Shown here: piece by piece, positions 15,826 through 53,318 of the stretch
Layout of the letters: each line of letters opens with the position of its first letter
Position numbering within the stretch: position 1 is the stretch's first letter
Source: Zygnema cylindricum
Taxonomy: Eukaryota > Streptophyta > Zygnematophyceae > Zygnematales > Zygnemataceae
Direction: 5' to 3'
NCBI GenBank assembly: GCA_037447655.1
Contig: JBBHKE010000719.1
Span: 170,463-234,462, forward strand
Length of the DNA: 64,000 nt
Translations under genes and position numbers: made by a program
Notes under the pieces: model-generated
The model's input: only the letters and a program-made list of their open reading frames with translations
What the model was told of the DNA's origin: nothing
The model's database searches: none

Positions 15826-17308
15826 GACAGCGCATCCGCCGGGTTTGTCTTGTCTGGTTTATATTCAATAGTTAACTCTGGTCCGAAAGTCTGAAGAAAC
15901 GTCATCCATCAAACCTGTTTCTTTGACAACTTTGGGTGTGTTTGGAGATACTGTAGGGCGTGGTGATCAGTGATGATGGTGATCCGCTTCCCTTGAACGT
16001 AACATTTCCAAACTTCCAGCGCATTAATAATGGCGATTGTCTCCTTTTCATAGGTGGCCCAGTTAAGCTCAGCTGCCTTTAGTTCTGACTGTCGTAGGCA
16101 ATGGGTAGAAGGCCTTTTCCTTGATCCTGCATAAGGATCGCTCCAATAGCCGTATCGCTAGCGTCGGTGATTATCGTCCAAAGTAATTCCGGGTCAAGGA
16201 CAGCTAACACAGGGGCGGTAACCAACCGCTCCTTTAGCGTGTCAAAGGCTGCCTTTTGCGCCGTTTTCCACTCATAGGGCACGTCATTTTTAAGCAATTA
16301 TGTGAGTGGAACAACAATTTTTGCAAAACCTTCCACAAAACGGCGATAGTAGGAGCATAATCCAAGAAAGCTCTGTAACTCCGTAATGTTCGTCGGGTGT
16401 GGCCACTCCTTCACTGCCCTAGTGATGTTGGGATCCACTGTGATTCATTCCTGGCTCACCACATGACCCAAAAACTCAATTTTCTCCTTCAAGAAATCAC
16501 ATTTCCTCCTCTTCGCGTAGAACTTGTTCTCCTGAAGGACTTGTAAGACCGTCCGCAGATGCTCCAAGTGATCCTCCAACGTCTTGCTATACACAAAGAT
16601 GTGGTCCAAGAAGACAATTACGAAGGCGTCCAAATATTGCCAAAAGATGGAATTCATCAAATGCATAGAGGTTGCCGGTGCGTTGGTAAATCCGAAGTGC
16701 ATAACCCGAAATTGGAAATGACTGTACGGAGTCCTAAATGTTGTCTTTTCCACATCTTTCTTGGCAATTCTGATTTGGTGATAGCCACTTCGCAGGTCTA
16801 TCTTCGAAAAATATTTAGCACCTCGTAGCCAATCCAATAGTTCGTCTATCCTCGGTAGAGGGTGCGCATTTTTCACCGTTAACTTGTTTAGCGCTCGGTA
16901 ATCCACACACATCAGAAAAGCTCCATCTTTCTTATTCACGAAGAGGACGAGGGCTCCATACGGTGACTTGCTCGGTTCGATTGCTCCGGCTTCGACCAAC
17001 TCCGCAAGTTGATTTTTGAGTTCATCCAATTTGGTGTTGCTCATCTTGTTCATTCGATTTGCCGAGGGTACCGCTCTGGGAACAAGCTCTATCTTATGGT
17101 CTACTTCGCACTTCGGAGGTAAGCCTTCTGGAAGCTTCGGGGGAAAGACGTCAACATACTCCTCGAGAAGTTTTGTCACGACTTCCAAGGCCTCTACGGA
17201 AGTCTTTCCGATGTCGTCACTCTCTTTCGAGTCAAATTCGGGGTCCTTCTTACTCCATTCTTCCGGAATCCCCTCTTTCCTTTCCTCCATAGGTTGGACG
17301 ACCGCCAT
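15826..17308 (-). pseudogene. Gypsy E reverse transcriptase and RNase H
   Basis: This is the middle of E Pol. The RT frame is open at 17308-16445: the VDHKIELVP and RAVPSANRM region, [35 protein letters not shown] and then [10 protein letters not shown]. The last should carry the YxDD-type catalytic pair, but the second Asp codon reads CAC (16601-16603), giving His. The connection domain follows ([16 protein letters not shown], about 16350), then RNase H at 16297-16079 (TIITDASDTAIGAILM, catalytic Asp kept) and a frameshifted part with WATYEKETIAIINALE and ITDHHALQYL. It is broken by stops at about 16445 and 16299, the frameshift near 16080, and Copia A at 15825. Confidence 0.85.
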
Positions 17309-19135: not shown

Positions 19136-19802
19136 GATACCAAGACGCAGTGGTCCATACGGGAGCACTCCCAAATCTGATTAATATTTCGGCTTTGCAG
19201 CAAATGTCGGAAGAACTCCGTCCTGAAATATGCACAAGCAACATATGTCTCAGCACGGATAGCAGTGGAAACCAGCCAGTTCACGAGATCACAAAGGCTA
19301 TGTTAATTGAATTTTCAGATGACGCGGGCCAACAAGTCCTGATTCAGCTTCCCTTCTTCGTGGTGGAAGGTAAACAGTTTGAAATTCTGGGAACAGCCAC
19401 CTGGACTAGGCTTTATTTGGATTTAAGTGTGTGGAAAAAGCAGTTTACTGTTCGAGACCCAAAGATTTCGGAAGGGACCAAGGTGGTGGTACCTTTGGCC
19501 TTATGGAATCGGGGAAAAACAAATGCTCCGGTTTCCGGGTGTTTTCCTGTTTACACAACTTCTTACCCGTCGGAACTCCTTGCCAGTTCCATAGACATCG
19601 TCGAGGTAAATTAGTAATTCCTTATTTCCAAGCGGTGGGAAGAGGAATACCAAAACCGACTGTCACAGATGGCCACACTCCGGCAGGGAGTGGACCGGAC
19701 TTTTTCAGCTATTTTACCCAAGGACAATACTTCAAATCGTCGGTCACAACCTTCGGTTGTTCAGCCGAAGAGGAAGATATTCAACTGACAAGTGGTGTCT
19801 TT
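19136..19802 (+). pseudogene. DNMT-Gypsy D1: aspartic protease region
   Basis: Resumes D1 after E and is colinear with D2 at about 51440-52108. The frame at 19150-19614 reads GALPNLINISALQQM, then LPFFVVEGKQFEILG and ATWTRLYLDLSVWKKQFTVRDP, typical of a retropepsin-like domain. The catalytic triad reads H-T-G (19156-19164), whereas D2 reads D-T-R at the same place, so each copy has lost it differently. The segment after 19614 moves to another frame and leads toward the DNMT domain. Copia C interrupts at 19803, with target duplication TCTTT. Confidence 0.78.
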
Positions 19803-20642
19803 TGTTATTTTTGGAAAGCTTTAGTCCTCTCTATTTCTCGGTTGTGAAGGAGAGAGAGCTCTTCAGGACTTAGTTCATTTTTGGGTATCTCCGGTTCAGT
19901 AATTGCTAGAATTAGTGTGACAGTGAAATTGGTACTTCACATTTAAGTCAAACTAGAGACACGCATCGTCTGCTGCAAGAAATGCTTGAGTATGTCCTCC
20001 GTGGACATACATACATTCGGTAAGGACCACATGATTCTTGAGAGCACATCCACGGTTTCTAATTTGGTGATCGGACGGCTGACAGCTGCCGCCGACAACT
20101 GTTGACGAGGCGTGACTAGATCACGATGAATTTTCTTTATTATCGTGATGTGACTGTCGGTGTAAATATTTGTTAGAACCAGAATTTTGTCTGTAGTGAA
20201 TTAGTTGATTAGTGTAGAATGCGTGATTTAAGACATACCTTGTGTACACAGGTATACTCACGATATTTTTGTGAGACGTATGGTTGGAATGCCTCCGTAA
20301 ATTTTAGTATAGCTTCAGTATAAAAGTAGGACTTAGTAAATTTTGGAGTTTAGGAACAAATGATATGAAAGCTGGACACTCAGTTTTATGTAATTTCATT
20401 TCTAAATATCTCAAATATCTGTGAGGAGAATTAAGTGAAATTTTGTGTGTATGATCCATCGTATGTTATCTAAATTGTGGTAGACTTGTAGGATTATAGT
20501 GTTCTTTTATTGGAAGTTATTGTCTGTCAAAGTTGTTGTTTTGCCATCGGTTTTTGTGGAAGCTTTCTCTCTTGATTTGTTCTACAATGACTACTGCTGC
20601 CTCTTCTTCATCTTTAGTACCAGCAGTTGTCTCAAAACATCA
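19803..20642 (+). repeat. 5' LTR of Copia C
   Basis: TGTTATTTTTGG...ACATCA, 840 bp. It shares the block GTCGGTGTAAATATTTG with the LTR of H. The gag ATG lies inside it at 20587. The primer-site position that follows (CGTCACGGGCCCGCC) matches the initiator-tRNA-type site at 11 of 15 bases. Confidence 0.8.
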
Positions 20643-25576: not shown

Positions 25577-28500
25577 GGTTATGGGCCCACCCTCTAGGGT
25601 ACCAATCTTTAATGGAACTTGCTTCATATACTGGGAAAGTATGATGATAGGAGCTCTATGCGAAAAAAGGTTTTGGGGGATAGTGAGTGGACGATTGGGG
25701 CGTCCATCAAGTCTTGGAATTCCTCCAGGGTTTAAAGGAAGCAGATTCACCAGGAAAGAGGATTCACCTTCAACGGAGGAAACAAAGGAAGGAGAGGTGG
25801 TGGACAAAGGAAAGGAGAAGGAGGCGACCACACCAATAGCAACTGGTTTAGCATTCATGTCACCTATTCCGAGGAACGAGGAGAATGATACTGAAACCTG
25901 GGACTTCAACAATATGGCGGCAAAGCACTTCATCCTACGCCATCTCACTCAAGGACTTGCATGTCCTCATTTGCAGGTAGAGAGGGCATCCGATCTTTGG
26001 ATGGCTCTCATAGAGATGTACCGAAGTGGTACGATTCAGCAACAACAGTTGGCTGATCAGAAAGTTAAGGAGTATGTATACAAAGGGGGAAATATGTTGG
26101 ATTTTTGCAATGAGCTTGCTACACTCTTCATGGAGCTAGAGAGTGCGGGTAAAGTTTTTAGTGAAAAAGAAAAAGTTAACTGTTTACTAATGAAGTTACC
26201 TGATGAGTTCGAGAACATAGTTTACCGTGTGCAGGACTTGCCTAACTCAAGGTGGATATGGAACTCAGTGGTAAGGATGATTCTCGTTGAAGAGAATACA
26301 ATTGAGATCCGAAGGGGAGGAAAGAGTGGCCAAGCCTTGGCAACAGCGACTGATTAGAGGAACAGGGATTCCCGAAAACCGGTCAGAAACTATGGGGGTA
26401 GGGAGCAGAAAAAACAGACCGACGAGTTCGAACCAAGGGCTCCCAAAGGTTTATGTAATTTTTGTAAGAAACCGGGGCACTATATGGCAGAGTGCACTAA
26501 GCTAACCGAGCTTCGGTTAAAGGAGGGGCAGACCGGTGGTACCCCGAGAGGAAAGAAAAAGGCCCTTGTCACACAGGTACTTGAGGCGGAATCCGAGGAC
26601 GAGGACGATGAGCTCCTTTTGGATGAGGAGTTGGAGGCGAAAACTGAGGTCGAAATTCCACAAGGCAGAAATGTGCTTACAGTGGATTGAAAGGTGAAGC
26701 AGGTTGGATTATAGATTCAGTTGCCTCAATGCACATGTGTAAGGATAGGCACCTGTTCACTAAGATAAGAAAGATTCCCACCGTAGAGATAGAGTACGGG
26801 GATGGGAGGATAGTCACCACTACTCTTGTAGGATCGGTAGATCTTAAAGTGTTAGTAGAAGGAAAGACATCTATATTAACATTCTCCGATGTATTGTTTA
26901 TTCCGGAGTTGAACAAAAACCTTATCTCTACATCAGTATTAGATGATAAGGGTTTTTTCACTAGCACTAGGGAAGGAGTCTTTACTGCTAGTTTTGAGGA
27001 GGATGTCTATTTCATTGCTGAGAAAGGTAGCCATGGGATGTTTAGGTTGGTTTTAAGTAATGAAAAGAAGAAACTTTATTATGCTGGTGTTCATGATATT
27101 ATGATGTGGCATAAGAGGCTTGGGCATGTGAATCTAGATAAGTTAAGAGAGATGAAAAAGATGGGAGTGGTGGAAGGGATTCAGTTCAGTGAGAGTGATA
27201 ATATAAGTGATTTTAGTAGGTGTGCTCAAGGTAAAGCACACAGATTACCCTTTCCTAAAACAGCCACCTACAAGGGAGAAAAACTTCTAGATCTAGTACA
27301 CACAAATATTTGGGGACCGGCTAGAGTGCCCTCACCGGGGGGGAAGAGATTTATGATGACTATAACTGATGATTGGTCTCGGTATTCCCGGGTGTATTTT
27401 TTGAAAAACAAGTCAGAAGCTGAGGATTGTTTTAGACAATATAAAGCATGGAGGGAAAAACTCCATGAAACTCCAATCAAGAGAGTAAGGAGTGACAATG
27501 GTGGAGAGTATACTTCTAACCAGTTTGAGGATTTTCTGAGGGAAGATGGGGTCCAACACCAAAAGACAGTTCTAGAAAATCCTGAACAGAATGGGGTAGC
27601 TGAAAGGTTAAATAGAACACTAAGTGATAGTGCTAGAAATATGTTGTCAGATAAAAAGATAGGAAAAAGGTTTTGGGCAGAAGCAATGAACTGTGCTAAT
27701 TACCTCAAGAATAGAGTTCTTACTTCAGCTATGAAAGATCAAACACCTTATGAGAGATGAACAGGCCGGAAACCAGACATATCTCACTTAAAGGTTTTCG
27801 GAAGTCAAGTATTCAGTCTAGATACTGATCGGTCCAATTGGAAGCTAGATCCTAAAGGAAAACCGGGATACTTATTAGGATATGATGAGGATGTTAAAGG
27901 ATATAGAGTTTATGATCTAAAAAGGGAATATATAATCTTAGTAAAGCATCTAGTAGTTATGGATGAAGGAAAATCTGTGGATCCCTTCAAATATACGAAG
28001 CCAGTAAAAATCAGATTTGAGTCAAAAAATTCCGATGACTTTGAGCTTCCTAACTATCCAGGTTTTAGAGAAGATGACATTCTTCCAGGTACAAATCAGA
28101 CCGAAAAGGACTCGGCTGTGGAAACTCCAGTGACAACTCTACCCGAAGCGGAAGACGTGGTGGAATTTGATTCGGAATCAAGGGATGGGGAGAAGCCGAG
28201 TTTGTTCGAAAGAATCCACGAAAACCATCTATTCTGGCCTCAGATTTTGAAGGGGGGAGGAGAAGTAGCAAAAGACTGCAAGAAAAATAGGTTAATAACA
28301 AGGTAACTAAACTATCTCATCAAGATGAACCTCAAACTTATGGAGAGGCGATGAATTGTCCAGAAAGAAATCGGTGGAAGACAGCCATTAATGAAGAGAT
28401 GGCCTCAATTATGGCAGCCGATACTTGGGAGCTGGTGGATTGTCCACCTAACCGAAAACCAATCGGTTGTAAGTGGGTTTTCAAACTAAAACTGAACCCA

Positions 28501-32016: not shown

Positions 32017-32354
32017 TCTTTAACCATTCTTGATTCAGGAATCCGGATCTTATCCCTTTCTTTGGAATCGGTTCTAACCTGGAGGTAGTTTTGAAGGAAG
32101 GATATTAGGTGGAAACCTATGCAGCCGTGGAAATATCACATGAGGCCCGGGCTGTCAGCGAACACCACTTGCAATTACTTCACTAACTATATCCCCAGCA
32201 ACTTCCCGTGTCCTCAATTTCCAGCGCTCACCAAAGTCTTCCCCAAAATGTTGATAACATCATGGAACCTCATTTAGCGGTGCTGGGAATAGTGGATCTG
32301 GTGGTAGCGAGATGGCCTTGTCAAGGATACTCTCTGGTTGGACAAGGAAAGGGA
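32017..32354 (+). pseudogene. DNMT-Gypsy D1: methyltransferase motifs I to IV
   Basis: This is the N-terminal half of the cytosine-5 DNA methyltransferase domain of D1, which would transfer a methyl group from S-adenosylmethionine to cytosine. At 32061-32075 the DNA codes F-G-I-G-S in one frame (motif I, the cofactor loop), followed by a motif II-like AAVEI. A shifted frame carries V-D-L-V-V-A-R and then PCQGYS with the catalytic cysteine codon at 32319-32321 (motif IV). Frameshift and stops (near 32056, 32107 and 32194) break the reading. It is colinear with D2 at 52109-52435. Element H interrupts at 32355. Confidence 0.8.
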
Positions 32355-33639
32355 TGTTGTTTTTGAAAAGTTAGTTTCGTGCGAACACGGCGTTTCGTGC
32401 GTACGCGATGTTTCGTGCGTACGCATTTACGTGATATACTGTGGAGGTTCGAAAGGATTTGCGGATTGGGGGAGTAAGTGTACGAGCAAAATTAAAGTGA
32501 CGTGTGAGTGGCGCGAACAAACATTTGAAAATGTACGGCGGATCGCGAAGCGATCCGATATGAAATATGAATTGTTTGAAACGTACGAAGTACAAATGAA
32601 GTGACGCGAAGAAGCGTACGAAAAACAGAATGCGACAAGCTAAAATATTACGTCGCACGTACAAAACAGTTTGCGACAGGCGCATTTATTGCAAACGACG
32701 TATATTCAGTACGGAAAAGATTTAGAAGGTACGGATTAATTTTCGGCAGTAGTTCGAGGTACACGTGGAGGGCGGACGGCGTCCGCCGATATTTTCAAGA
32801 GATCGTATTGTTTGATGACGTGTTATTAAGTGGACCGTACATATGCGATGTCGGTTCACTACGTGGACTTATCGACAAGTGACTAAGCAAGTTGTCACTT
32901 ATGACGCGGATTTGTGGATGCGTCGGTGTAAATATTTGGAGTAACATTATTTTGTCTTTTACATCATTATAAATTAGTGTTGATTATGATGTTTATATTT
33001 AAGTGATCATTTAGGGTTTTGATAGTTTAATTTGTGTGTGTACAATATCATACTTGTAGACAAGTGTACGCTTACGATTGCTTAACTCTCAGGTGTACGC
33101 TTACGATTAGTTTGATTTAGTGACAGTTACGTAATTTACTTTGGTTATTTTGACACTTAGTGATTCATTGACAGCTCACAAGTGTATATATAGGAAGGAG
33201 CTTTGTTAGAAATTAATCATCAATGCTGGTTAGTAAAGTGGGGACCGAAGATGTAGACTTTTAGGGTTGCCGATTAGGTCATGCATTTGAGTAATATGTT
33301 TATTGATATACTTTTGTTTATTTAATGTTTATGTGAGATTTGACTCTTTTTGTTATTATTTATTTATGTTATTTTATGTTGTTTTATATATGTTTGATAT
33401 GCATTGTTTATGCATTTGTCCTAGGGTTTGTTTATGTCGATTATTCCATCAAACCTTAGATGTTGTCATAGGGTTTATTTATGTTGATTATTCCATGAAA
33501 CCCTAAATGTTGTTTGTTGCGTCTGTGTACGCATATGGAGGATGCATTTCATATGATTGTTCGTCGACCTATTTTTGCTTAGCTTTTTGCATGATAGTTT
33601 GGTTTGCTTCTGCGGTCTATTTTAGACCAAAGAACAACA
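32355..33639 (+). repeat. 5' LTR of element H
   Basis: TGTTGTTTTTGAAAAG...GAACAACA. It begins with three tandem 18-bp units (32374-32427), is rich in GTAC and TACG motifs, and ends with a hairpin, GGTCTATTTTAGACC (33615-33629). Short frames inside it occur in both LTRs and show no known protein. Confidence 0.9.
32374..32427 (+). repeat. Three tandem 18-bp units in the H LTR
   Basis: The units start GTTTCGTGCG at 32374, 32392 and 32410. The second and third also contain the palindrome GCGTACGC or a close variant. The array is repeated at 34594-34647 in the other LTR. It could be an enhancer-like array (inference). Confidence 0.85.
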
Positions 33640-33653
33640 GGTTATGGGCCCAC
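33640..33653 (+). other. Primer-binding site of element H
   Basis: GGTTATGGGCCCAC abuts the LTR, as in the Copia elements, although H has no gag. Its presence without coding need shows that this block is kept as a primer site rather than only as gag codons. Confidence 0.85.
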
Positions 33654-34574
33654 ACCCCATCTATCATATGTTAGGTTAAGTCGATGTAGGTTTGTGTCAC
33701 ACGCATTGTAGCGGGTTAATTTTGTTCTTGCTGGTTGTATTGCAGTAATGGTGTCTGTGTACCCATGAGATCGGCCTTATCATAGTGTTGGTATGTGCCG
33801 AGTTTAATCTTGCATTGCCCCAAGGGTTAACTTAGTGACAGTGCCGAAATGTCTACCCTCAATGAAAATGATTAATTATGAGAAATGATATTTTATTTTT
33901 AGAAAATACATATTCGTTTGATGGAGAGATGTGGAAGGTGGAGATTCGACGTTTGGGGGAGAGAGATCCGGAAGGTGGAGTTGTGACATGTGGTGGAGAA
34001 ATCCAAATTTTGTGGATCGATGATTGTTGAAAATTGGATTTGTAATGTAGATTTTGAGTTGTTGGAAATTTTTGCGAAATGTAACATTATTGGAGCTTAA
34101 AATTGCGATAGAGAATGTAGATTTTATTTATTTTTATTTTTAATGTTTTATTTTGTGGGATTAAGTACGCGGGTTGCGAAATTTAGAAAATTTGGAAAGT
34201 TTCATTTTTGGAAATTGTTATGGTAGTTAGAGGAAAATGTGATAATTTTGTTGGAATTTTGTTTATTTTTTTTGGTAGAATTGATTTTCGGAAAATAGTT
34301 TATTATTTATGTATTTTTATGGGAAATTTTCGGATTAAGATATTGTTGAGAAAAGAGAAACTTTTGTTGTAATCGGAAAATGAAAATATATATTGTGTAT
34401 TATGATATTTGGAAAGATTTATAGAGGCAGCGGAAGCAGTGGTGTAGCGAAGGCAGATTCAAATGGAGGAGGCAGCTGAAGGTGACATTGGTGACAGCTG
34501 ATGATGTAGTTCCATGAAGTGTGACAGATGATGACGTGGCATCATGGATGCACGAAACTAAATTTTCGGGGGAG
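33654..34574 (+). other. Non-coding internal region of element H
   Basis: About 0.92 kb, AT-rich (especially 34080-34420), with no significant open frame on either strand and no match that I can see to gag or pol of the other elements. It ends in a purine tract. It presumably holds packaging signals. Confidence 0.7.
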
Positions 34575-35849
34575 TGTTGTTTTTGAAAAGTTAGTTTCGT
34601 GCGAACACGGCGTTTCGTGCGTACGCGATGTTTCGTGCGTACGCATTTACGTGATATACTGTGGAGGTTCGAAAGGATTTGCGGATTGGGGGAGTAAGTG
34701 TACGAGCAAAATTAAAGTGACGTGTGAGTGGCGCGAACAAACATTTGAAAATGTACGGCGGATCGCGAAGCGATCCGATATGAAATATGAATTGTTTGAA
34801 ACGTACGAAGTACAATTGAAGTGACGCGAAGAAGCGTACGAAAAACAGAATGCGACAAGCTAAAATATTACGTCGCACGTACAAAACAGTTTGCGACAGG
34901 CGCATTTATTGCAAACGACGTATATTCAGTACGGAAAAGATTTAGAAGGTACGGATTAATTTTCGGCAGTAGTTCGAGGTACACGTGGAGGGCGGACGGC
35001 GTCCGCCGATATTTTCAAGAGATCGTATTGTTTGATGACGTGTTATTAAGTGGACCGTACATATGCGATGTCGGTTCACTACGTGGACTTATCAACAAGT
35101 GACTAAGCAAGTTGTCACTTATGACGCGGATTTGTGGATGCGACGGTGTAAATATTTGGAGTAACATTGTTTTGTCTTTTACATCATTATAAATTAGTGT
35201 TGATTATGATGTTTATATTTAAGTGATCATTTAGGGTTTTGATAGTTTAATTTGTGTGTGTACAATATCATACTTGTAGACAAGTGTACGCTTACGATTG
35301 CTTGACTCTCAGGTGTACGATTACGATTAGTTTGATTTAGTGACAGTTACGTAATTTACTTTGGTTATTTTCACACTTAGTGATTCATTGACAGCTCACA
35401 AGTGTATATATAGGAATGAGCTTTGTTAGAAATTAATCATCAATACTGGTTAGTAAAGTGGGGACCGAAGATGTAGACTTTTAGGGTTGCCGATTAGGTC
35501 ATGCATTTGAGTAATATGTTTATTGATATACTTTTGTTTATTTAATGTTTATGTGAGATTGGACTCTTTTTGTTATTATTTATTTATGTTATTTTATGTT
35601 TGTTTGATATGCATTATTTATGCATTTGTCCTAGGGTTTGTTTATGTCGATTATTCCATCAAACCTTAGATGTTGTCATAGGGTTTATTTATGTTGATTA
35701 TTCCATGAAACCCTAAATGTTGTTTGTTGCGTCTGTGTACGCATATGGAGGATGCATTTCATATGATTGTTCATCGACCTATTTTTGCTTAGCTTTTTGC
35801 ATGATAGTTTGGTTTGCTTCTGCGGTCTATTTTAGACCAAAGAACAACA
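34575..35849 (+). repeat. 3' LTR of element H
   Basis: 1275 bp, about 99% identical to 32355-33639. The main difference is a 10-bp deletion near 35600. Confidence 0.9.
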
Positions 35850-36718
35850 AGGGACACTAGGACAGCAAGAGCCGAACCTTTTTTCGAATGATACAATTAA
35901 TTTCATGGCTTAAACAGCTTCAGGACACACCAGTGGGGTACGTCTTAGAAAATGTCCACCCAGGAGATGATAAACGAAAACATGTGGCCAATAACTGGTA
36001 TCACATTACACTGATTTTAGGGGCTCCATTAGTTTTTGATGCAGCACAAATAGGATCCGCAGCTCACCGAGTCAGAGCTTATTGGACCAATTTGATCCCT
36101 TTTTCGGTCCTCAAGCAAATCTTGCAGAGGCAAGAACTAAATCCCCAAATTACTCTGCAACAAATTCTCGGGAAAGAGAGGATGGCCACCCCGGTGACAA
36201 AGGCTGATCGTTCCCTGTTCTTCCGATGCAACAAGCCACGGTCTCCAAGGCGAGCAATTCCAACCATGGTTTCCTTTCCCAACAGCCACGCATATCCAAA
36301 AGGTGCAGCAGATATGATATTTGATACGAAAATCGAAACCTGGACAACACCAACTATTGAGGAACGAGAACTGGCCATGGGATTCCAACCTTCCACAACG
36401 GGCCCACCAGGTATTTCAGACCTCCAGAGGTGCAGCCTAATCAGACAGAGCATTGATTTGAATGCAGTCACATGGGTTATGCAGCATTCTCTTCCCTTTT
36501 CTAATCTTCAGTCTCCGCAGTTTCGGATTAGCTACCTTCAAGCTCCAAAGTTGTTAGCCATGCGGGCCACTTTGCAACTTGAGGGGGGGAGAGAGGAAAT
36601 AAGAAGAACCTTGCAATCCAAAATTTCACAGGATCCAAGAGTTCCCAAAATGGGGGGGAAAGGAGGCTTAAAAGGGGATAGCTTAGCGGAAGTTGTCAAC
36701 AGTAGAGTCCTAGCATAA
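35850..36718 (+). pseudogene. DNMT-Gypsy D1: methyltransferase motifs VI to X
   Basis: This is the C-terminal part of the cytosine-5 methyltransferase. After H the frame hits a TAG at 35858-35860, then is open from 35888 to 36718 (276 codons). Numbering from 35888: motif VI YVLENVHPGDD at 18-28 (Glu-Asn-Val), motif VIII with FDAAQIGSAAHRVRAYW at 50-66 (arginine-rich signature), a variable target-recognition-like region at about 95-150, then TPTIEERELAMGF at 154-166 and IRQSIDLNAVTWVM at 185-197, corresponding to motifs IX-X. The order I-IV-VI-VIII-IX-X is canonical and not the rearranged order of plant DRM enzymes. A basic tail (170-276) leads toward RT. It lies between protease and RT, which makes it an internal Pol domain. 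Confidence 0.85.
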
Positions 36719-38452
36719 GGGGAAGGAGTAGACCCACAGGTAGGACTAGATTTCGATATTAGCCGCTGGGGCTGACCACCGGAAGCATGGGCAGCAGTAG
36801 AACCAGGGGAGATGGATTGGACTTTAGGGGAGCAGCTAGACACTCAACAGAAGGCCCAGCTCTCGGAACTATAAGAAAGGAACAAACTGGTGTTTTCCTG
36901 GTCTTACACCGATGTTGGCATCTATAAGCGGATCCCTTTTAGAATCGACTTGATAGACGAGACGGCAACTGTTTGGCAGAAGCAGTACCCTTTCAGCTTC
37001 AAAGAAAAAGAATTCATCACAGCTAAAGTCCAAACCTTGGTGGAAGCCAGACTGGTTTAGGAGAGTACAGGACTCTACGGTTTCGCATCCCCGACAGTTC
37101 TTCCTCCTAAGGAGGATGCGTCGAAAAAACTGTAGACTTCCGGATGTGTGGAGACTATCGTATGCTAAACGCCGCAACCATTTCTGATAGGTATCCGATG
37201 CCAACCCTGCAAAAGATTTTTGACTCTCTTGTTGGGGCCACGATATACTCCACTCTAGACATGAAGGATGGGTTCCACCAAATTGCGATGGAACCAAAGC
37301 ACCGGGAGAGGACAACATTTTGGGTTGGGTCCATGTTGTATGAGTGGCTATACATGCCATTCAGGATAAAGAATGCACCAGTAAAATTTCAACGAGCAAT
37401 GGACGAAGCCCTCCGAGGAATCGACTGTGCCCGGTGTAATATAGATGACGTGATTATCTTCTCTAAGACCTTCGAGGAACACTTAGAGCACATAGAGATT
37501 GTTCTCCAGGCCCTCCAAGCGGCAGGCTTGAAATGTCACCCGGGCAAAGGCATTTTTGGAGTACAAAAAATCATTTACCTTGGTCACGAAGTAACTCGCG
37601 GGATAGTGGGCCCCCATATGGTCAACGTAGCAGCCCTTAACGCCCTTCCACCACTGCAAGACATCTCTGCCCGCTGCACCTTTCTGGGCCTGGCTAACTA
37701 CTATCGAAGATTTATCCCCGTGTTCAGCAGTTATGCCCAACCTCTAAATCAGTAATTTCGGAAGGACCAAGAGTTGAAGTGGGCCGAAGAACAACAGATC
37801 TCCTTCTAGTTCTTGAAGGATGCGCTCAAGCAGCACCACGTGCTCCAGATGCCTGATCACCACAAACATTTCCTCTTTTTACTAATTGGAGCAGGTTTGG
37901 ATTGGGGGCAACTTTGGCCCAAATTGATGACGACGGGGCTGAGTATGTCGTGGCTTACGCGAGGCGGAGCAACAACAAAGGTGAGGGAAATTACAGCAGT
38001 TAGCATGGAGAGCTTCTCGCGGCGGTTTAGGCCATTTAGCATTTCCGGCCCTATCTATATAGAATACGCTTCACCCACATTACGAATCATCAATCTCTCA
38101 AATGGATCATCGAACATAGTAAGTTGACCGGCAAACTTGCTAGATGGGTTTTGATCTTGCAGGAATACGATTTGAGTATTGTCCACCGGGCAGGGGAAAT
38201 CAACGGAAATGCCGACACACTTAGCAAAAGTCCAGACCCCTCAACTCTGGATTCTACGAGGGCTCGGCACGATGAGGACCCCGAGATTAGTCTGGGAATT
38301 ATTCGAGCCTCCTCCGCCTTCATATGGCTTCCCCGATCTGGGGGGGAGCTGTCAACCTTTGCTGCAGACATGGAGGGGCAAGCACCAATAGGGGCCGAAA
38401 GAAAGGATATTTGGAATGATCCTGATTCCCTTCGATCTATCCAGCAAAATTA
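36719..38452 (+). pseudogene. DNMT-Gypsy D1: reverse transcriptase and RNase H
   Basis: Gypsy-type RT begins at about 36900 (RIDLIDETATVWQKQYPF, then FASPTVLPPKED) with stops and a frameshift near 37130. It is open at 37144-37755: CGDYRMLNAATISDRYPMP, YSTLDMKDGFHQIAM, FRIKNAPVKFQRAMDEAL, active site NIDDVIIFS (IDD at 37441-37449) and the connection LGLANYYRRFIPVF. RNase H follows in broken frames: FLKDALKQHH, a GLGATLAQIDDDGAEYVVAY block, HITNHQSLKW (Asn where Asp is usual) and IVHRAGEINGNADTLSK. The polymerase catalytic pair is intact. Frame breaks are at about 37755, 37808, 37895 and 38010. Confidence 0.85.
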
Positions 38453-39720
38453 ACCTCTTCCCCACTTAGCTGGAGTGGAATTGTCCCGTGTTCAAAACTG
38501 GATGGCGCGCTATGATTGGGACCGGGGCATCCTTCTCCGAAAATTGGCGGATGGGACAAGGAAAGTGGTTCCCCCACCCGCCTATCGAGAAACTTTAATC
38601 ACACGCCTCCATAAGCAATGTGGGCACTTCGGGCAGAAAAGGACCACCTCTCTTGTCACAAGATCTTATTCGTGGCACGGGTTGGGAACCCAAGTCAACC
38701 AAATTGTACAAACATGCTCCTCCTGCGATCAATTTAAAGCCGCTTTTGACAAAAAGGGAGGAACAAAGCTTCATTCCCTTCCCATCCGGGGGATGTTTTA
38801 CCGATAGTCTCTTGATCTATTGGGGCCTCTTCCAAACAACAAACGGGGGAACCGCTTCGTGCTCGTTATGATAGAACATTTTTCAAAATAGATAGAGTTT
38901 GTGGTTCTTCCCCAGAAGGAGTCCAAGTCGATTGCCGATGCCTTCTTGCAGAGAGTGTTGTCGCAATTCGGGGCTTTAGCAGAGGTTCTTACTGACCAAG
39001 GTTCGGAATTCGCTGGAGAGTTTTCAAACCTTTTGCAGATGTGTCTCATCGACCATCGGCTAACCAGTCGTGACCATCCACAAGCCGACGGTTTGGACGA
39101 AAGGTGCGTTCAAGCAGTCAATACGAAAATATGCAGTGGAAAAGGATTTGGGAGAGTGGGACAAAAGGGTGCCTTGGATTGCCATGGGATACAGGTTCAG
39201 TCCGCAAGCTTCCATCCACTCCTATAGCCCTTACTTCATTCTATTTGGAAGACATCCTATCCTACCCGGCGTTGCTTTAGCCCAAGCAGTGGTCCTTCGG
39301 AAATGGATAACCAAGCGACAGTCGAAAAACTGATCGCCGACATAGCCAAAGTATTCCACCGAGAGATCCCTCTCGCCATGGGGAATTTCAAGCGGCTCAA
39401 CACCGAGATTAGCTGTGGTATTCTCAGCGCAGAAGCGGGAATTACGTACCCCGGCAACGGCGATTCATGCCCGGGGACTTTGTGCATAGGATGCAACAGA
39501 AAAAGGACACGCTGGATATTTCAGCCGGGAGAGTGATTCTGAGAGTGGTGGAAGTTTCTAACAAATGAGTTATTACCTTGGAGGGGAACGATGGCCGGAG
39601 AATTAAAGAGAATCAAATAAATGTCACCCCTTGCCATCTTCGAGGATTGGAAGACGAACCCACTTTTCACCTAACCTACTTCACCGACCCTCCGCCTTGT
39701 TCCTCCACCTACACTATGTC
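38453..39720 (+). pseudogene. DNMT-Gypsy D1: integrase
   Basis: The order is an HHCC zinc finger (RLHKQCGHFG ... CSSCDQFK, about 38605-38740); a core with Asp in LDLLGPLP (about 38812), Asp in LTDQGSEFAGEF (38995) and Glu in DGLDERCVQAV (about 39100); then WIAMGYRFSPQASIHSYSP and FGRHPILPG in a shifted frame (39115-39300); then a C-terminal part with PGDFVHRMQQKKDTL and INVTPCHLRGLEDEP. Stops occur at 38805, 38889 and 39566. No chromodomain is seen, unlike E. It ends about 170 bp before a purine tract and the LTR-like segment. Confidence 0.83.
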
Positions 39721-39885
39721 CTCCTAGCGGAACAGCGTCTTGGTGTGCGATCAATACAGCCAGTGTTCGCATCCCTCCTGCCTGCCCTCTTCCTGGTAGC
39801 CATGCCCTCCACCCTTGGTCACGTGGTTCTGCAGGAATTGGGAGTTCAGCGGGTAAATCTTTCTTTTTCTTAGTCTGGATTGACT

Positions 39886-39900: not shown

Positions 39901-41169
39901 TGGGATCTCAGCCCGATGACCACGGAACCTAACCCTTTTCTCCCGACTGGAGGGGAAAAGGTAAGGGGGGAAGGGGTATCTTTTTCACCTTCCCATGCAT
40001 TCATTTCCATTTCCTGTCCGACTATCTCCTATGCTTGCATGCATGTCTACGCAAGGGATGGTTGTCAAGCTCATGTGCTTTACAGGCACACCTCAATATC
40101 ACCAAGGATTTCAGGGACCTTTTTAACCTGTACGGTCATCACTGTAGCGAGGAAGGAGTGCACCCAGCCATACCAGATTGTTGGATTTTCCCAACAGGCG
40201 GAACGCACTTTGTTTCGCGCCTAACGGAGGCCGAACAACCAAGTTATACCGTCTCAAAATTACCATCCGCTTACATGGAACCATTTGCCACCAGCCCCCG
40301 TGGGGGGTACATTGTGGATTGCCACGTAACTTTCCGGATTTGCATCTAGATTTTGCTGTTAGCCATCAGTAGGAATTCAGATCACGCTCGGCTGACTTTT
40401 GGTCCATTAATTACATTAGGACAAAGTCTGGCAAGTTAGTGTCCTTTTCACGACTTTGTCTTATAATAGTGGAACAAATAATTACTTCTGGCCGCCGATC
40501 TAGCCGCCTTCCGAAGCAGAACTTTTTGCCCCGAGTGTAGTACGGATTATTTTGTCTTATGTCAGTTCAATTACATTTTCTTGCCGCTCATCGGTTAATA
40601 GCGTAGCTTTGACTTTTCGACCTACAATTTGACAAACTTTGATGTATAAGGCACTTGGGGTCGAAGGAGACAGGTTGCTTTTCAGTACTATCTCCTGTGA
40701 AAACCCTCAGAAATTCCAACAAACCTTCTTTTGGAGAATCTTTGTTATGTTTTCACTCTATTGCCATCTTGGTTTTGGATCTGTCTTTTGTGGGAATCAA
40801 AGTCCGGGCGGGTAGTTGGCACTATCTGCTTTATGGGTGATTTTTGGACTTTTTGCTGTTTGAAACCGAGAAGAGTCTTGTCGGTTCCGAGTTGCGGACA
40901 CCGGAGGTTGAAAGAGCACCATACCTATTTACGATACTATCGGGATAGGGATCTCTTTTCTCTCGTTGTCATCGTTTATTGTTGGGGTGTGTTAAGCTTG
41001 CTTCGCTATATTTCACATTCTCTTTCTTTTATTCTCTTTTTTGGGGCAAGGTGATATTGTTAAATTTGGAAAGCCTATCCTATTACCTATATATTTCTAC
41101 GTGGTAGTGCATTTGTGTCTTCATCTGTAGTTCATTTTGCTTTGGAGTGACCATCTCGGAGTAAACTCA
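39901..41169 (+). repeat. LTR-like segment between D1 and D2
   Basis: This 1269-bp non-coding segment starts TG after a purine tract and ends CA at 41168-41169. D1 integrase ends before it and D2 gag begins after it. A possible primer site (TGGTTCAGGACAGTGGG) starts at 41177. No second copy is in the window, so the ends are provisional. Confidence 0.55.
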
Positions 41170-43719: not shown

Positions 43720-46700
43720 CTAGTGAATCTTTAATTTCAGACCACACTTCTCCCTGCAGAAAATTAGCTTAGGGGAAGGCACAAGTTTGGTCATCATATC
43801 TGCTACCATCTCACTATCTGGTCGGTACTCTAAACTGATTATTTTATTTTCTACTTTCTCTCTAACAAAGCTGAGTCTAATGTCCATGTGTTTAGCTTTA
43901 AAATGATGTTTAGGATTGGCAGAAATAGCGATTGCTGCTTGATTATCACAAAATATTTTCTGCACACCACTCTTAAGATGACCAAGTTCACCAAGTAAAG
44001 ACTTGACCCACATCAATTCTTTTACAGCAGAGCAAGAGGCCATATACTCAGCCTCCATGGTGGACTAAGCAATGACCTTTTGCTGTTTGCTACTCCAACT
44101 ACAAGCCCCATCACCCACATATAATACATATCCAGAAGTGCATCTCCTCATCGGAGCATCACCATAACTAGCATCACTCCAAGTTGTGATGTCAGTATTC
44201 TCCCTACCCAAATGCAACCATAGATCCCTAGTTCCTATCAAGTATCTAAGAACTCTCTTAGCTGCCTCCCAATCCTTCTTATTGGGAGCATTTAGACTTC
44301 TACTCAGCACTCCTACAGCTGAAGCTAAATCCGGCCGGGTACAATTCATAAAATAGATTAGACTTCCCACTACTTGCGTGTAAGGAATAGTCTGCATGAA
44401 CTTCTGTTCATCAGGAGATAATTCCTCGTCTAAGACTATGACTCCTTCTTCCTCACTCCCCTCACTTCCCTTCTTCAACTCCATTGTAGTTGTACAACTA
44501 TTAGCTTTATCCATTTGAAATTTTTCAAGCATGTTCCCTATTGCTTCCTTTTGAGTCAATCTTATAATTTTCCTTTTTCGGTCTCTCTCTACTTGAATTC
44601 CCAAAATATATTTTGCTTCCCCCATATCCTTCATTTCAAATCTCCCCTTAAGATCGGTTTTCAGTTTATTAATTTTTTCCATTGATTTACTTAAATCAAG
44701 CAAATCATCAACATAAATTGCAATTAATATAAAACCTTCCTCATCTTCGAAAACATAGATTGAGTGATCTGAGCTGATCCGAATATATCCTAGACCGGTA
44801 AGAAACTCATCAAGCTTCTTATTCCACTGTCGAGGCGCCTGTTTCAAACCATAAAGAGATTTAATCAGCCGGCATACCTTACTCTTCTCTCCTTCTTCCA
44901 CAAACCCTTCGGGTTGTCGCATGAAGATCTCCTCTTCCAATTCTCCATGCAAAAAGGCTGTTTTGATGTCCATCTGGTGCACTTCCATGTCTTCCGCTGC
45001 TGCCAGGCTGAGAAGTATGCGGACGGAGGGAAATCTGACCACCGGGGTAAAGGTTTCCTCGTAGTCAATTCCCTCCTTTTGTGTAAATCCCTTTGCCACT
45101 AGTCGGGCCTTGTAGCGCTCGATTGTGTTATCTGGATTCAGTTTAAATTTGAAAACCCACTTACAACCGATTGGTTTTCGGTTAGGTGGACAATCCACCA
45201 GCTCCCAAGTATCGGCTGCCATAATTGAGGCCATCTCTTCATTGATGGCTATCTTCCACCGATTTTTTTCTGGACAAGTCATCGCCTCTCCATAAGTTTG
45301 AGGTTCATCTTGATGAGATAGTTTTGTTACCTTGTTATTAACCTGTTTTTCTTGCAGTCTTTTACTACTTCTCCTTCCCCCTTCAAAATCTGAGGCCGGA
45401 ATAGATGGTTCTCGTGGATTCTTTCGAACAAACTCGGTTTCTCCCCTATCCCTTAATTCTGAATCAATTTCCACCACGTCTTCCGCTTCGGGTAGAGTTG
45501 TCACTGGAGTTTCCACAGCCGAGTCCTTTTCGGTCTGATTTGTTCCTGCAAGAGTGTCATCTTCTCTAAAACCTGGATAGTTAGGAAGCTCAAAGTCATC
45601 GGAATTTTCTGACTCAAATCTGATTTTTATTGACTTCGTATATTTGAAGGGATCCACAGACTTTCCTTCATCCATAACTACTAGATGCTTTACTAAGATT
45701 ATATCTTCCCTTTTTAGATCATAAACTCTATATCCTTTAACATCTTCATCATATCCTAATAAGTATCCCGGTTTTCTTTTAGGATCTAGCTTCGAATTGG
45801 ACCGATCAGTATCTAGACTGAATACTTGACTGCCGAAAACCTTTAAATGAGATAAGTCTGGTTTCCGGCCTGTCCATCTCTCATAAGGTGTTTGATCTTT
45901 TATAGCTGAAGTAAGAACTCTATTTTTGAGGTAATTAGCACAGTTCATTGCTTCTTCCCAAAACCTTTTTCCTATCTTCTTATCTGACAACATACTTCTA
46001 TCACTATCACTTAGTGTTCTATTTAACCTTTCAGCTACCCCATTCTGTTCCGGATTTTCTGGAACTGTCTTTTGGTGTTGAACCCCATCTTCCCTCAAAA
46101 AATCCTCAAACTGGTTAGAAGTATACTCTCCACCATTGTCACTCCTTACTCTCTTGATTGGAGTTTCATGGAGTTTTTGCTCCATGCTTTATATTGTCTA
46201 AAACAGTCCTCAGCTTCTGACTTGTTTTTCAAAAAATACACCCGGGAATACCGAGACCAATCATCAGTTATAGTCATCATAAATCTCTTCCCCCCCGGTG
46301 AGGGCACTCTAGCCGGTCCCCAAATATTTGTGTGTACTAGATCTAGAAGTTTTTCTCCCTTGTAGGTGGCTATTTTAGGAAAGGGTAATCTGTGTGCTTT
46401 ACCTTGAGCACACCCACTACAATCACTTATATCATCACTCTCACTGAACTGAATCCCTTCCACCACTCCCATCTTTTTCATCTCTCTTAACTTATCTAGA
46501 TTCACATGCCCAAGCCTCTTATGCCACATCATAATATCATGAACACCAGCATAATAAAGTTTCTTCGTTTCATTACTTAAGATCAGCCTAAACATCCCAT
46601 GGCTACCTTTCTCAGCAATGAAATAGACATCCTCCTCAAAACTAGCAGTAAAGACTCTTTCCCTAGTGCTAGTAAAAAAAACCCTTATCATCTAATACAG

Positions 46701-49110: not shown

Positions 49111-51167
49111 CGAAACAACACTCTTCCCCATGATAGTCAACTACCTTTTTGGAGTGGCGTTGGCTGATTACAAAGAGCGTCAACCTCTTTCGATGGCTCT
49201 TAACATCAAGATCTCGGATCTAGCCCTTGATGCTGCAGTTTTACAAGCGGAGGCTGACTTGGCTGCGGCGGCTGCGACACCTGTGACTGCTACCTTTACA
49301 CAGGACGTGAAACTACAGGCGCAAGGAAGTGACTATGTTAACCAGCTGCAAGCAATCTAGGCAGCCCAGGCAGCAACTCGAATGGTTGCCAATCCCAACC
49401 CTTGTACCACCCTGCTTAACATATGGGGACTCATTTACAACGAGAGGAACGAATCTGCGATCAAGGAATTCATGGAATTCCGATGTTTGAAGAACGAGAC
49501 TCCGCAGACCCTCTTTAACCGACTCTCCAGCCTTTGTCAGAAGACAAAACTATCCACGATTGATCTTCTGGCGATGGCAACCAAATATTTCATCGCAGTC
49601 CGTAATTCATTCGGGCCAACAGGGCAGACTACCCTGGATAATTGGATTGCCGGACAAGATTTTAGGACATTAATCTCTCAGCCAAGGAAATTTCGCTTGT
49701 GGCAATGAAGTTGTACGACCACTTCATCCACAGTGAGGCCAGGGAGAAAGTCGTGACCAGCAAGTCCCGCACAAATTTTGCAGGATTCGGCGGAGAGACC
49801 TCCTTGAGTGAGGAGGAAAGGCTGAACTTTAAGCTTTGCGGAAGCTCAAAGGGAATCAAGTGGCTAACAGCGGGTCAGAACTGGCAATGGGAGTAGACGA
49901 AAGAGTTTTTTTTTACAATTGCTTAAATTGTCACCAAACAGGCCATGGGTGAAAGCACTACACACGGAAACTTAAACCGGAGCTGGCCTTGAAGCTAAAA
50001 TAATGGGAGAAAGAACGCGCATAAAGGACCCGAAAGCAGCAAGAAAGCCTCAAAGGGGAAGGGGGGGGAGAGAAGACTCCAGTAACCAAGGACACTTACC
50101 GTCCGACGCCCCGAGGAGAAACCACCAAAATGTCGCAATCCCAGCTGCGAAAAATCAAACTTCCAAAGTTTGATGACGCCCGAATCTCAAATGAAATCCG
50201 CAGTAAATACACCTCCAAAGGAACGAAATGCGAGGCTTGCGGGTTCCTCGGGCATAAGGAAACGCAATGTTTCCGAAAAAATGGCGTTCCTAAAGAAATG
50301 ATGTAGTTCGCCCTATTCACTGGAGAAGGAGAAACTGCCGTTAACCCTCTCCCACTTCAACTCCTCTATCCTTCGGGACGCCGAGTATCGCTTACCCAAG
50401 ATGAACTGGAGCGAACACCGGTGGCTCCAACGAGACTTACATCGGAATTCATCATCCAGCAGCAGAGTCAGCAACTAAACGCAATGGCTGCAGAGTTGGC
50501 TGCCCTCCGCTTGGGATCTTCTTCCCGGTCTGCTCCGCTCACGGCAGCACAACGACTCCAAAAACAGAAATAAGAGTTGTTACAAAAGCTCGCGGAGCTT
50601 GAGCTTCAAAGCACAGCGGGTGCTAATGATGAGGACTTATTGGGTTGGGATTTGGAACCCCTAAATTCCCACCATGCCCGAACCTCCCTTTCCGGGGCTT
50701 GGACTGTTGGGGTGGGAGACAGTCGTCGCCAACTTCGGAATTCCACATCGATGCAAAGGCAGGACAAGCAGAAAATGGGTCAGAGGGACCACAACCGGAA
50801 AGCTACAGGTCCTTTGTCATTGACTCCTAGGGTAGTGATGCTGAAAAGCGACATCGGCCTCGGAATCAAACCCAATCACCCGCCATCTCTTCCTCCCAAC
50901 ACTAAATTGCCTCCCGGTTTCGAAAACTACCAGAACGAGAAACAACAACGGGAGAAGGAGTCGCTGAAAAGAGAGAAAATGGACAATCAGGACTGGTTTG
51001 AAAGATAAATGGCAGAAGGCCCGGAAATTGACACTCTCTAAACTCCGCCAATCCCAGATTCCGGCTCCGAGAATGACGAGAAGGAAGGAGAGGATCAGGA
51101 TCCGCAGGAACCGGAGTCACCACCATCCTCACCTAAGGCTACCCTTCCTTCCTCCAAACCGGCTGTA
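49111..51167 (+). pseudogene. DNMT-Gypsy D2: Gag capsid, zinc knuckle and linker
   Basis: The capsid continues with LFPMIVNYLFGVALADYKER, an alanine-rich helix (49230-49300), a TAG at about 49358 and WGLIYNERNESAIKEFMEF with ETPQTLFNRLSSLCQKT, a region typical of retrotransposon capsids. A CCHC knuckle, CEACGFLGHKETQC, lies at 50229-50270. A Q-rich stretch, a basic and glutamate-rich linker (50577-51008) and an acidic, proline-rich segment follow. Stops are at about 50304, 50571, 51006 and 51040, and a frameshift lies near 49680. Matching parts of D1 are at 4205-5230. Confidence 0.75.
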
Positions 51168-51914
51168 ATGGTATTTCGACATCTCATGCCATACGCCCTC
51201 ACCCACGTAAAGACTCTGGCATCCTCTCACAACCTTCCCGAAGAAATCCTCATTCAGGCATTGGGAGAAGAGATCCACTCTGGGAAAAACCTTGTCAACA
51301 GGGCCACTCCGCCAACCGCAGTGTTTTTGTCTATAGATCTGAAAACCTCTATAGTGGATAGGGACTACAAAGCCTTGTCAGTGGCTCTTATGCTAAACCG
51401 GACGGGTAACTTCAAGCTCAACGGGTACGGAGGATACCAGGACGTTGTGGTCGACACCAGAGCGCTCCCCAATCTCATTACCACTTCCGCCTTACAAAAA
51501 ATGCTTGAAGAACTCCGGCCAAAAATCCGCCCGAGTAACATCTGCTTCAGGACGGTAAGCAACGGTTGCCAACCTGTCCATGGCATCATCAAAGCCATAG
51601 AAATCAAATTCTTAGATGACGCAGGCCAAAAGGTGAAAATTGAACTCCCCTTCTTAGTGGTTGAAGGGACTCAATTTGAAATTTTGTTAGGGATGGCAAC
51701 TTGGACCCGACTAAATATGATTTTAAGTGTTTGGAAAAAACAATGTACCGTTCGGGACCCCAGGAATCCCGAAGGAACCAAAGTGGTGGTTTCTTTGGAT
51801 TTATGGAACCAGAGGAAGACAAATGTCCCGGTGTCTAGATGTTACCCGGTGTATACTACATCATCTCTGGCGGCACTGTTTTGCGGTTCCACAGATATAG
51901 CGGAAGAAATCTAG
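51168..51914 (+). pseudogene. DNMT-Gypsy D2: aspartic protease region
   Basis: Open for 248 codons. Residues 1-90 form a linker shared with D1 (FRHLMPYALTHVKTLASSHN, then KALSVALMLNRTGNFKLNGY). The protease follows, with VVVDTRALPNLITTSALQ (D-T-R at 51453-51461; the triad glycine is lost) and FLVVEGTQFEILLGMATWTRL, the second conserved part of retropepsins. It would cleave the polyprotein but is probably dead here. TAG at 51912-51914 separates it from the DNMT segment, which continues in the same frame at 51969. Confidence 0.78.
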
Positions 51915-53318
51915 CAATTCCCCATTTCTAAGCGGTGGGAAAAGGAATACAATAATAGATTATTACAGGTGGCGAAACTCCGGCGAGGAGTGGATCAGAC
52001 TTTCTCGGCTTTATCATTAAAGGAAGTCGTTTTTACACCCCTGTCTGATGCTTCAAAAACCAAGTCTGATAACGTGGGATTTGATCGACAAGTGGTGTCA
52101 TTGGCAGTACCCAATTTCGGACTCCATATTTTATCTCTCTTTTCGGAGATTAGTTCCGATTTGGAAGCGATGTTGAAGACAGGATATCTGGTGGAGTCAT
52201 ACGCAGCCATGGAGATATCCCTGGACACACAGGCTCTCAGCGAACACCGCCTCCACCAACTTCACCACTTATATCCTGAACAACTTCCAGTGTCTGCCTT
52301 CTCCAAAGCTCACCGGAGTCTTCCCAAAAATGTAGAAAACATCATGGCGACTCATCTGGCCACTTTGGGAAGAGTAGATTTCGTAATGGCATGCTAGCCT
52401 TGTCAAGGATACTCCCTAGCAGGACAAGGGAAAGGACATCAAGACCGCAAAAGTGGAACATTTTACTGGTTGATCGAACTAATCTTGTGGCTTCAACAGC
52501 TCCAGGACACACCGGTGGGGTACGTTCTGGAAAATGTCCACCCGGGAGATGATAAACGGGTACGTTCTGGAAAATGTCCACGTGAGAGATGATAAACGGA
52601 AATAGTTTGCAGACGGCTGGAATCACATAACCCGGATTTTAAGAGCTCCCTTGGTTTTCGACCCCTCCCAGATGGGATCCCGGGCACACAGAGTCAGGGC
52701 ATATTGGACCAATATGATCTCGCTTCCAGTCCTCCGGCAACTGTTGGAGAAGCAAATCTCGGACCCGCAAAATTTTGTGCAGCAAATACTTGGGGAAGGG
52801 AGAATGGCCACCCCTGTGACTCTACCCGACCGCCCCTCTTTCTTTCGGTACAACAAACTGGGATTCCCACGGAAAGCACTCCCGACTTTGGTCTCCTTTC
52901 CTCACAGTCACGCTTAACGAAAAGGAGCAGCAGGAATGATTTTTGACAGTAAGGCGTGACTCTGGACACCACCGACAATTGCAGAACAGGAAGCAGCAAT
53001 GGGATTTTATAAAGGCACCACGGCAGCACCAGGTATTTCAAACTTTCAAAGGTGCACCATAATTGGGCAAAGTATGGATTTGAATTCGATCACATGGGTG
53101 CTAAAGCATGCACTCGCCTTTTCTAGTCTCAAGTCCCCATAATCAAGGGCTATTTACCTTCAAACTCCTGAGTTGTTAGCGATGCAGGCAACTTTGCAAC
53201 ATGAGAGGGGGAGAGAAAGGAGAAAAGTTCACATTTCACCACCGCAGGCTTTCTTAGTGGGGGGAGGCGGCGGCTCAATTGGCGATAGCTTAGCGCAAGT
53301 TGTCAGCAGTAGTGTCCT
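51915..53318 (+). pseudogene. DNMT-Gypsy D2: cytosine-5 DNA methyltransferase domain
   Basis: The open stretch 51969-52397 has motif I-like HILSLFSEISSDLEAML at 52125-52175 (the glycines seen in D1 are lost), YAAMEIS (motif II) and VDFVMAC just before motif IV. A TAG at 52395-52397 replaces the Trp seen in D1 and is followed in the same frame by PCQGYSLAGQGKGHQD with the catalytic Cys. WLIELILWLQQLQDTPVGYVLENVHPGDD (partial motif: ENV, motif VI) leads into a 40-bp tandem duplication (52518-52597) that shifts the frame. From 52651 another frame gives SRAHRVRAYW (motif VIII), and later pieces give PPTIAEQEAAMGF and IIGQSMDLNSITWVL (motifs IX-X). It is full length in motif content but broken. 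Confidence 0.83.
52518..52597 (+). repeat. 40-bp tandem duplication inside the D2 DNMT
   Basis: Two adjacent 40-bp units (52518-52557 and 52558-52597) each start GGGTACGTTCTGG and differ at three bases. D1 has a single unit. The 40-bp length shifts the frame at motif VI. Confidence 0.9.

Follow-up and report, generated by a model that had tools for sequence, protein, structure and literature searches.

Gypsy-type retrotransposons of Zygnema cylindricum carry a cytosine-5 methyltransferase domain, putatively DNMT3-like, within Pol

We analyzed a stretch of 64,000 nucleotides from the alga Zygnema cylindricum (GenBank assembly GCA_037447655.1, contig JBBHKE010000719.1, positions 170,463 to 234,462 of the forward strand; hereafter the window, numbered from its first letter). 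It holds two broken copies, D1 and D2, which are almost certainly dead members of a Gypsy-type long terminal repeat (LTR) retrotransposon family bearing a cytosine-5 DNA methyltransferase (DNMT). Since the window copies are dead, the DNMT claim concerns the family and not these copies. Stop-free relatives elsewhere in the genome carry the DNMT domain in frame within the Gypsy Pol. The explanation that we favor, and consider probable as a whole, is a Gypsy family with a DNMT3-like domain and a PHD finger, in which Pol would be made by readthrough, the DNMT would be packaged and the element would methylate itself.

The D1 DNMT domain lies at 32058-36505 (plus strand, as are all D1 pieces), upstream of a Gypsy reverse transcriptase (RT), and is a broken cytosine-5 methyltransferase. 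Window alignments were made against L012, a genomic relative with unbroken frames. Motifs I to IV are found at 32058-32354 (71% identity over 99 aa, E 2e-36; two stops). Motifs VI and VIII and the C-terminal block occupy 35861-36505, in an alignment that covers 35828-36505 (65% over 226 aa, E 2e-97). A first part of the domain (query residues 2-64) is located upstream at 19618-19809 (58%, E 6e-13; one stop). The initial annotation had placed the catalytic Cys codon of PCQ at 32319 and ENV at 35948-35956, and both positions are exact; the FGIGS, AHRVRAYW and IRQSIDLNAV blocks that it listed start at 32061, span 36062-36085 (HRVR at 36065) and span 36440-36469, respectively, in canonical order. 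It had also placed the DNMT between protease and RT. The order is correct, but the protease and the DNMT N-terminus fall outside the interval that it gave (32017-36718): the broken N-terminal part of the protease region is at 5142-5528 (60% to L012, E 8e-42; three stops) and the protease core at 19138-19605 (72%, E 9e-71; frame free of stops). The Gypsy RT and DDE integrase claimed downstream are borne out by Pfam and by alignment to L012, which extends over 36506-39853 in four pieces (67-84% identity). These comprise a broken DNMT-RT linker at 36506-37129 (67%; four stops), the RT at 37126-37878 (Pfam RVT_1, E 1.4e-23; 84%; two stops) and a broken RNase H, H2C2 zinc finger and DDE integrase at 37839-39392 (73%; eight stops). 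The last segment matches RT_RNaseH (8.7e-9), Integrase_H2C2 (8.8e-15) and, below the cut-off, rve (9.6e-5). A remnant of a C-terminal PHD finger follows at 39674-39853 (48% to the PHD region of L012, E 3e-8). D1 is defective: stops interrupt seven of the nine pieces checked, including two of the three DNMT pieces, and the frame changes as well. Judging by the order of the pieces and the matching query ends, they probably derive from one element.

The Pfam search proposed for the DNMT succeeded on relatives and failed on the window pieces tested. Two window frames (32095-32274 and 32308-32601) gave no Pfam DNMT match, but both lie outside the DNMT frame. Three stop-free segments of relatives match PF00145 with 48-53 bits against a cut-off of 22 (E 5.5e-14 to 1.2e-12). 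Because the tested window pieces lack a Pfam DNMT match, recognition of the domain rests on the relatives. Chance occurrence of the motifs was considered and ruled out by the D1 alignment over most of the domain together with the PF00145 matches of the relatives. The profile is covered in part (positions 2-158 of 324 in family A and 3-112 in family B, as defined below). Since this coverage is N-terminal, the C-terminal half of the DNMT rests on alignment to relatives and on a very weak match to DNMT3A (3.9 bits).

The assembly searched comprises 352.8 Mb in 2,689 contigs. PF00145 was found at no fewer than 123 places (123 scored of 782 candidates), and a family A DNMT query gave at least 109 matches at at least 106 places with 62-100% identity (106 scored of 1,967 first-look candidates; D1 and D2 are absent from these 106). 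Twenty loci of 10 kb, chosen by DNMT match, were taken for comparison. They fall into D1's own family (family A) and a second family, L009 and its relatives (family B), which is about 40% identical to A. A branch of L021 and L022 is about 51% identical to family A, and L017 joins this branch in a tree. The L009 frame of 2,395 aa encodes a CCHC zinc knuckle, an aspartic protease, the DNMT, RT, RNase H, an H2C2 and DDE integrase and a PHD finger (the zinc knuckle and protease Pfam matches are weak and below cut-off). The L012 frame of 1,520 aa runs from the DNMT through the integrase, and its PHD match (E 0.0044) is also below cut-off. The genome-wide search for intact copies suggested in the initial annotation thus yielded long unbroken DNMT-RT-RNase H-integrase-PHD frames. 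A PHD-like C-terminus follows the integrase in 15 of the 20 loci by similarity (e.g., L009:9010-9219 and L012:8697-8876). The Gypsy order of protease, RT, RNase H and integrase with H2C2 and DDE is present, with the protease matches below cut-off. Gag and protease precede the DNMT in the same unbroken frame in one copy. The profile matches of the stop-free relatives, the many copies and the canonical motif order uphold the reading of a Gypsy element in which the DNMT lies between protease and RT.

The DNMT is best classed as DNMT3-like from sequence comparison, with phage enzymes scoring about equally. With a single-sequence query against solved structures the scores were DNMT3A 55 bits, DNMT3B 42, HhaI 25, DRM2 20 and DNMT1 14; with a profile query they were DNMT3A 77, HaeIII 36, HhaI 35, DRM2 34, DNMT2 31 and DNMT1 14. 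That the donor was a phage-like or bacterial enzyme and not a host DNMT3 is a serious contender, to which we give somewhat less than an even chance. When phage enzymes and a DNMT3A piece were compared with one profile, EcoJ01 (73.3 bits) scored slightly above the DNMT3A piece (70.7), followed by phi18:3 (69.7), S-CBS2 (63.4) and a viral contig (40.1). In motif IV, family A has PCQGYS and family B has ECQGMS; of the three phage enzymes compared, two share the PCQG of family A, in contrast to the PCN of DNMT3A. The domain also matches PHROG 116 (2e-22). Against a phage-like donor, an alignment with DNMT3A runs through the domain from motif I as far as VIII and continues weakly past it, and the Klebsormidium versions are placed in a divergent DNMT3-related clade in the main text of De Mendoza et al. 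(PMC5890265). Searches of phage and plasmid records by tblastn found only relatives below 60% identity (115, 183 and 30 records). A single-protein pattern scan of viral contigs matched two stretches, none of them confirmed, and an alignment pattern scan of the genome_contigs set matched 18, again with none confirmed. The alignment pattern scan of viral contigs matched 17 stretches, of which one was confirmed (29% identity over residues 69-206).

In family A an in-frame stop is located exactly between protease and DNMT (UAG in nine of ten loci and UAA in one), and the codon after the stop is CAA in nine of the ten. The site is at L012:4314-4316, and L020, L023, L022 and others have it likewise. 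D2 shares UAG CAA with family A at this junction; in D1 the junction reads UAG followed by a second stop. UAG CAA opens the readthrough context of tobacco mosaic virus. The conserved stop suggests programmed readthrough, in which case the family A DNMT would be made only in a minor readthrough Pol product. The place of the DNMT in the Pol frame, and downstream of a stop in family A, suggests weak expression and packaging into particles: the DNMT would enter the particle alongside RT and integrase. Before or at integration it could act in cis on the element's own cDNA, circular DNA or new insertion, while the PHD finger would steer integration toward a chromatin state. Self-methylation as the selected role of the DNMT is plausible, if short of an even bet.

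The DNMT could instead act in trans on the host genome, competing elements or viruses, as a weapon or defence, which we regard as unlikely. A defence role is proposed for retrotransposon-encoded methylases in a passage of PMC6338049, and the sheer number of places with a family A DNMT, broken ones included, would fit it. Against it stands the same arrangement that points to packaging, with the DNMT fused in one frame to RT and integrase and placed behind the stop in family A. Less likely again is that the enzyme methylates RNA or the RNA:DNA hybrid in reverse transcription, or aids packaging, with DNA marking incidental. DNMT2-type enzymes act on RNA, and the DNMT here shares its frame with RT. 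Against an RNA role, the profile scores given above are far higher for DNMT3A than for DNMT2.

Sequence conservation argues for a functional enzyme. The motif IV Cys, the ENV Glu and both Arg residues of the HRVR-type (RxR) motif are invariant in all 11 aligned stop-free segments; the PCQ, ENV and RVR blocks, whose loss in other copies had been named as a possible refutation, thus persist in their catalytic residues. Median ratios of non-synonymous to synonymous substitution (Ka/Ks) in family A are 0.24 for the DNMT (range 0.11-0.37), 0.20 for RT and 0.20 for integrase. These derive from 15 pairs, of which 14 were kept for the DNMT (one had Ks of at most 0.02), 14 for RT (one was too short) and ten for integrase (five were without a match). 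The family B medians are 0.10 (DNMT), 0.04 (RT) and 0.11 (integrase), from three, three and four kept pairs out of 21; 17 pairs were saturated for each domain, and one pair each had low Ks for the DNMT and RT. DNMT and RT distances are strongly correlated among 18 loci (Mantel r 0.963, reached in 0 of 999 permutations; loci chosen by DNMT), which fits inheritance of the DNMT together with the element since before the split of families A and B. The stop-free copies probably encode an active DNA methyltransferase, as far as conserved residues and selection can tell. The DNMT is most improbably an inactive passenger hitchhiking in the polyprotein, as the dead window copies and the altered residue beside the catalytic Cys in family B might suggest, since the catalytic residues are unchanged across about 40% identity and Ka/Ks is well below 1 in every kept pair.

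The terminal repeats are split. Both families show the repeat order A-coding-B-A-B. In L009, A1 and A2 are both 931 bp and 100% identical, a sign of recent activity, and A2 is flanked on both sides by a B repeat of 243 bp. The A repeats of L012 are 1,186 bp long and 97.8% identical, with B on either side of A2. B-A-B is found in L010 and L020, where the second A falls short of the reference length, and L027 shows B-A. Plain LTR ends were our first reading, which was dropped in favor of A-B-A-B because a target duplication was lacking at the presumed ends; two full bounding LTRs with a short target duplication were not found, and split repeats were found instead. L009 begins with TGTC and ends with GACA, flanked by a 4-bp duplication (TTGG). 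A 10-bp palindrome is present at the B-A boundary in five copies (L009, L012, L010, L020 and L027; one with a mismatch), and the same five copies carry a G-run directly before the first B. The 16-29 bases after A1 are complementary to a site in the middle of A, and this complementarity beats all 100 shuffles in five of six copies, drawn from both families (e.g., L009:945-985 and L031:3298-3340). The complementary letters differ between families A and B. No tRNA-type primer site (TGG start) was seen after A1 in L009 or L012. The complementarity suggests self-priming, whereby reverse transcription would start from the element's own repeat. Integration may use a permuted DNA that derives from a circle and is cut at the palindromic B|A junction; the split repeats would result from integrating ends at this junction of circular or permuted cDNA. 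Because integration would proceed from circular cDNA under this proposal, the DNMT could mark the circle before integration.

The nearest known system is KnitGypsy-Dnmt3 of Klebsormidium nitens (de Mendoza et al., 2018, PMC5890265), a Gypsy element whose Pol includes a DNMT3-like domain. The initial annotation had cited DNMT capture by retrotransposons from the literature, and this precedent makes the citation apt. It had also stated that CG methylation was shown for some of these enzymes. As described in the main text of PMC5890265, this holds for SymbioDIRS-Dnmt3 only, which induced CG methylation in a yeast assay; the Klebsormidium Gypsy and SymbioLINE enzymes gave inconclusive negatives. 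Self-methylation is proposed there for retrotransposon DNMTs. DNMT3 in retrotransposons of streptophytes and dinoflagellates is listed again in a passage of PMC12344493, and according to an excerpt of PMC6338049, land plants such as tracheophytes lack methylase-encoding transposons. The Zygnema elements resemble KnitGypsy-Dnmt3, as far as its main-text description goes, in being LTR Gypsy elements with a DNMT3-like domain in Pol, kept key residues and purifying selection, in combining DIRS-like A-coding-B-A-B repeats with Gypsy domains, and in coming probably from the same broad host group. In this comparison by description only, they differ in forming two families, whose DNMTs are about 40% identical, with 106 or more family A places, and in four features described here: the PHD finger, the conserved UAG, a primer site complementary to the element's own repeat and the palindrome at the B|A junction. 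The main text of PMC5890265, figures and supplements aside, nowhere uses the terms 'PHD', 'chromodomain' or 'primer binding'. Among the open-licence papers listed in literature searches, no other report of a DNMT-Gypsy arrangement was found by title or abstract start. The Zygnema elements may be a further example of the KnitGypsy-Dnmt3 kind, and the extra features may prove to be a variant of it.

SymbioDIRS-Dnmt3 and SymbioLINE-Dnmt of dinoflagellates, as the same main text presents them, are likewise retrotransposon-captured DNMTs (DNMT3-like in the DIRS type), with tyrosine recombinase or LINE machinery in place of the protease and DDE integrase found here. DIRS/PAT elements share the A-coding-B-A-B order and differ from the Zygnema elements in the Gypsy H2C2-DDE integrase and in the 4-bp target duplication seen in one copy. 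No tyrosine recombinase was found among the open frames scanned, and the absence of protease and DDE integrase that marks DIRS elements does not apply here. Gypsy elements of the Tf1/sushi type self-prime from a primer site complementary to their own sequence and not to a tRNA; the complementary stretch here differs in lying inside the A repeat.

Several observations weigh against the explanation that we favor. Its biochemical steps are drawn from sequence, and the closest published relative, the Klebsormidium enzyme, gave an inconclusive negative in yeast (PMC5890265, main text). D1 positions 35861-36715 match no Pfam family at E ≤ 1. Many of the 106 family A places carry stops, and equal scores (e.g., C2179 and C2675) suggest that some of them sit on duplicated contigs. 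Siblings without a DNMT would have escaped notice because the 20 loci were picked by DNMT match. Family B has ECQ in place of PCQ in motif IV, and its Ka/Ks values rest on few pairs, with 17 of 21 saturated. The DNMT evolves faster than RT (57% versus 77% identity between L012 and L022). As for the repeats, L012 has one extra B copy near the end of Pol, and L019 shows A-coding-B only, without the second A and B. The 4-bp target duplication is clear in one of the four copies read at both ends (L009; not in L012, L019 or L020), and L020 fails the primer-site shuffle test.

The D1 pieces are separated by insertions. An LTR element of 3,495 bp sits inside the D1 DNMT at 32355-35849 (plus strand; LTRs at 32355-33639 and 34575-35849, 98.3% identical), with a 5-bp target duplication on its two sides (32350-32354 and 35850-35854). 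Inspection of its open frames by eye revealed no recognisable coding region. Two interruptions upstream measure about 13.6 kb (before the protease core) and about 12.2 kb (within the DNMT). The latter contains Copia-type sequence (Pfam, 26687-27757). The former contains a long open Copia pol frame with RVT_2 (11089-14757, plus strand, 1,223 aa) and a Gypsy RT (16448-17308, minus strand) that is distant from both DNMT-bearing families. A second open Copia pol frame with RVT_2 lies at 44068-46185 (minus strand, 706 aa). Downstream of D1, between D1 and D2, is a partial A-type terminal repeat (40523-41115, plus strand; 75% to the L012 A repeat, E 2e-71). D2 (51081-53127, plus strand) is the second broken copy. 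Its protease region at 51081-51911 (71% identity to L012, E 2e-131) ends at the conserved UAG (51912-51914), and its DNMT follows at 51915-53127 in two frames with four stops (62% and 67% identity, E 6e-84 and 4e-84). An alignment search with a relative found no DNMT match on the minus strand of the window.

Some observations on the genome at large were made in passing. Chlorophyll a/b-binding genes are abundant, with 88 matches in the assembly, including clusters on both strands (G000:C519:3496-34847 and G000:C2590:60644-75453). One light-harvesting gene (L053) matches chlorophyll a-b binding protein 3 and two relatives with 316-322 bits, other single-domain chains reaching at most 281; we take these matching chains to be of the Lhcb3 type. 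Another (L054) matches four chains with 294-303 bits, two of them named CP24, other single-domain chains reaching at most 121. Multi-domain chains of entry 9vfj match both L053 and L054 and give the top match for L053 (376 bits). Together these light-harvesting genes suggest a streptophyte. Lhcb3-like genes are reported in streptophyte algae except Mesostigma in a passage of PMC3088898, so that such a gene fits an alga and a land plant alike. The RuBisCO large subunit had no match in the assembly.

The elements extend DNMT capture by Gypsy elements to at least one more genome, where at least two families have expanded greatly and are kept under selection. A more speculative view, which we hold to be doubtful, is that a Pol with a chromatin writer (the DNMT) and reader (the PHD finger), self-primed and circle-integrating, defines a distinct lineage, with co-evolution of DNMT capture, permuted repeats and DDE integration across streptophytes. 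The split repeats together with a DDE integrase pose a mechanistic question about the form of the integrating DNA. With a recent copy whose repeats are identical, the gain of the element from its DNMT becomes experimentally approachable. A retrotransposon that makes its own methyltransferase would invert the picture of methylation as a host defence.

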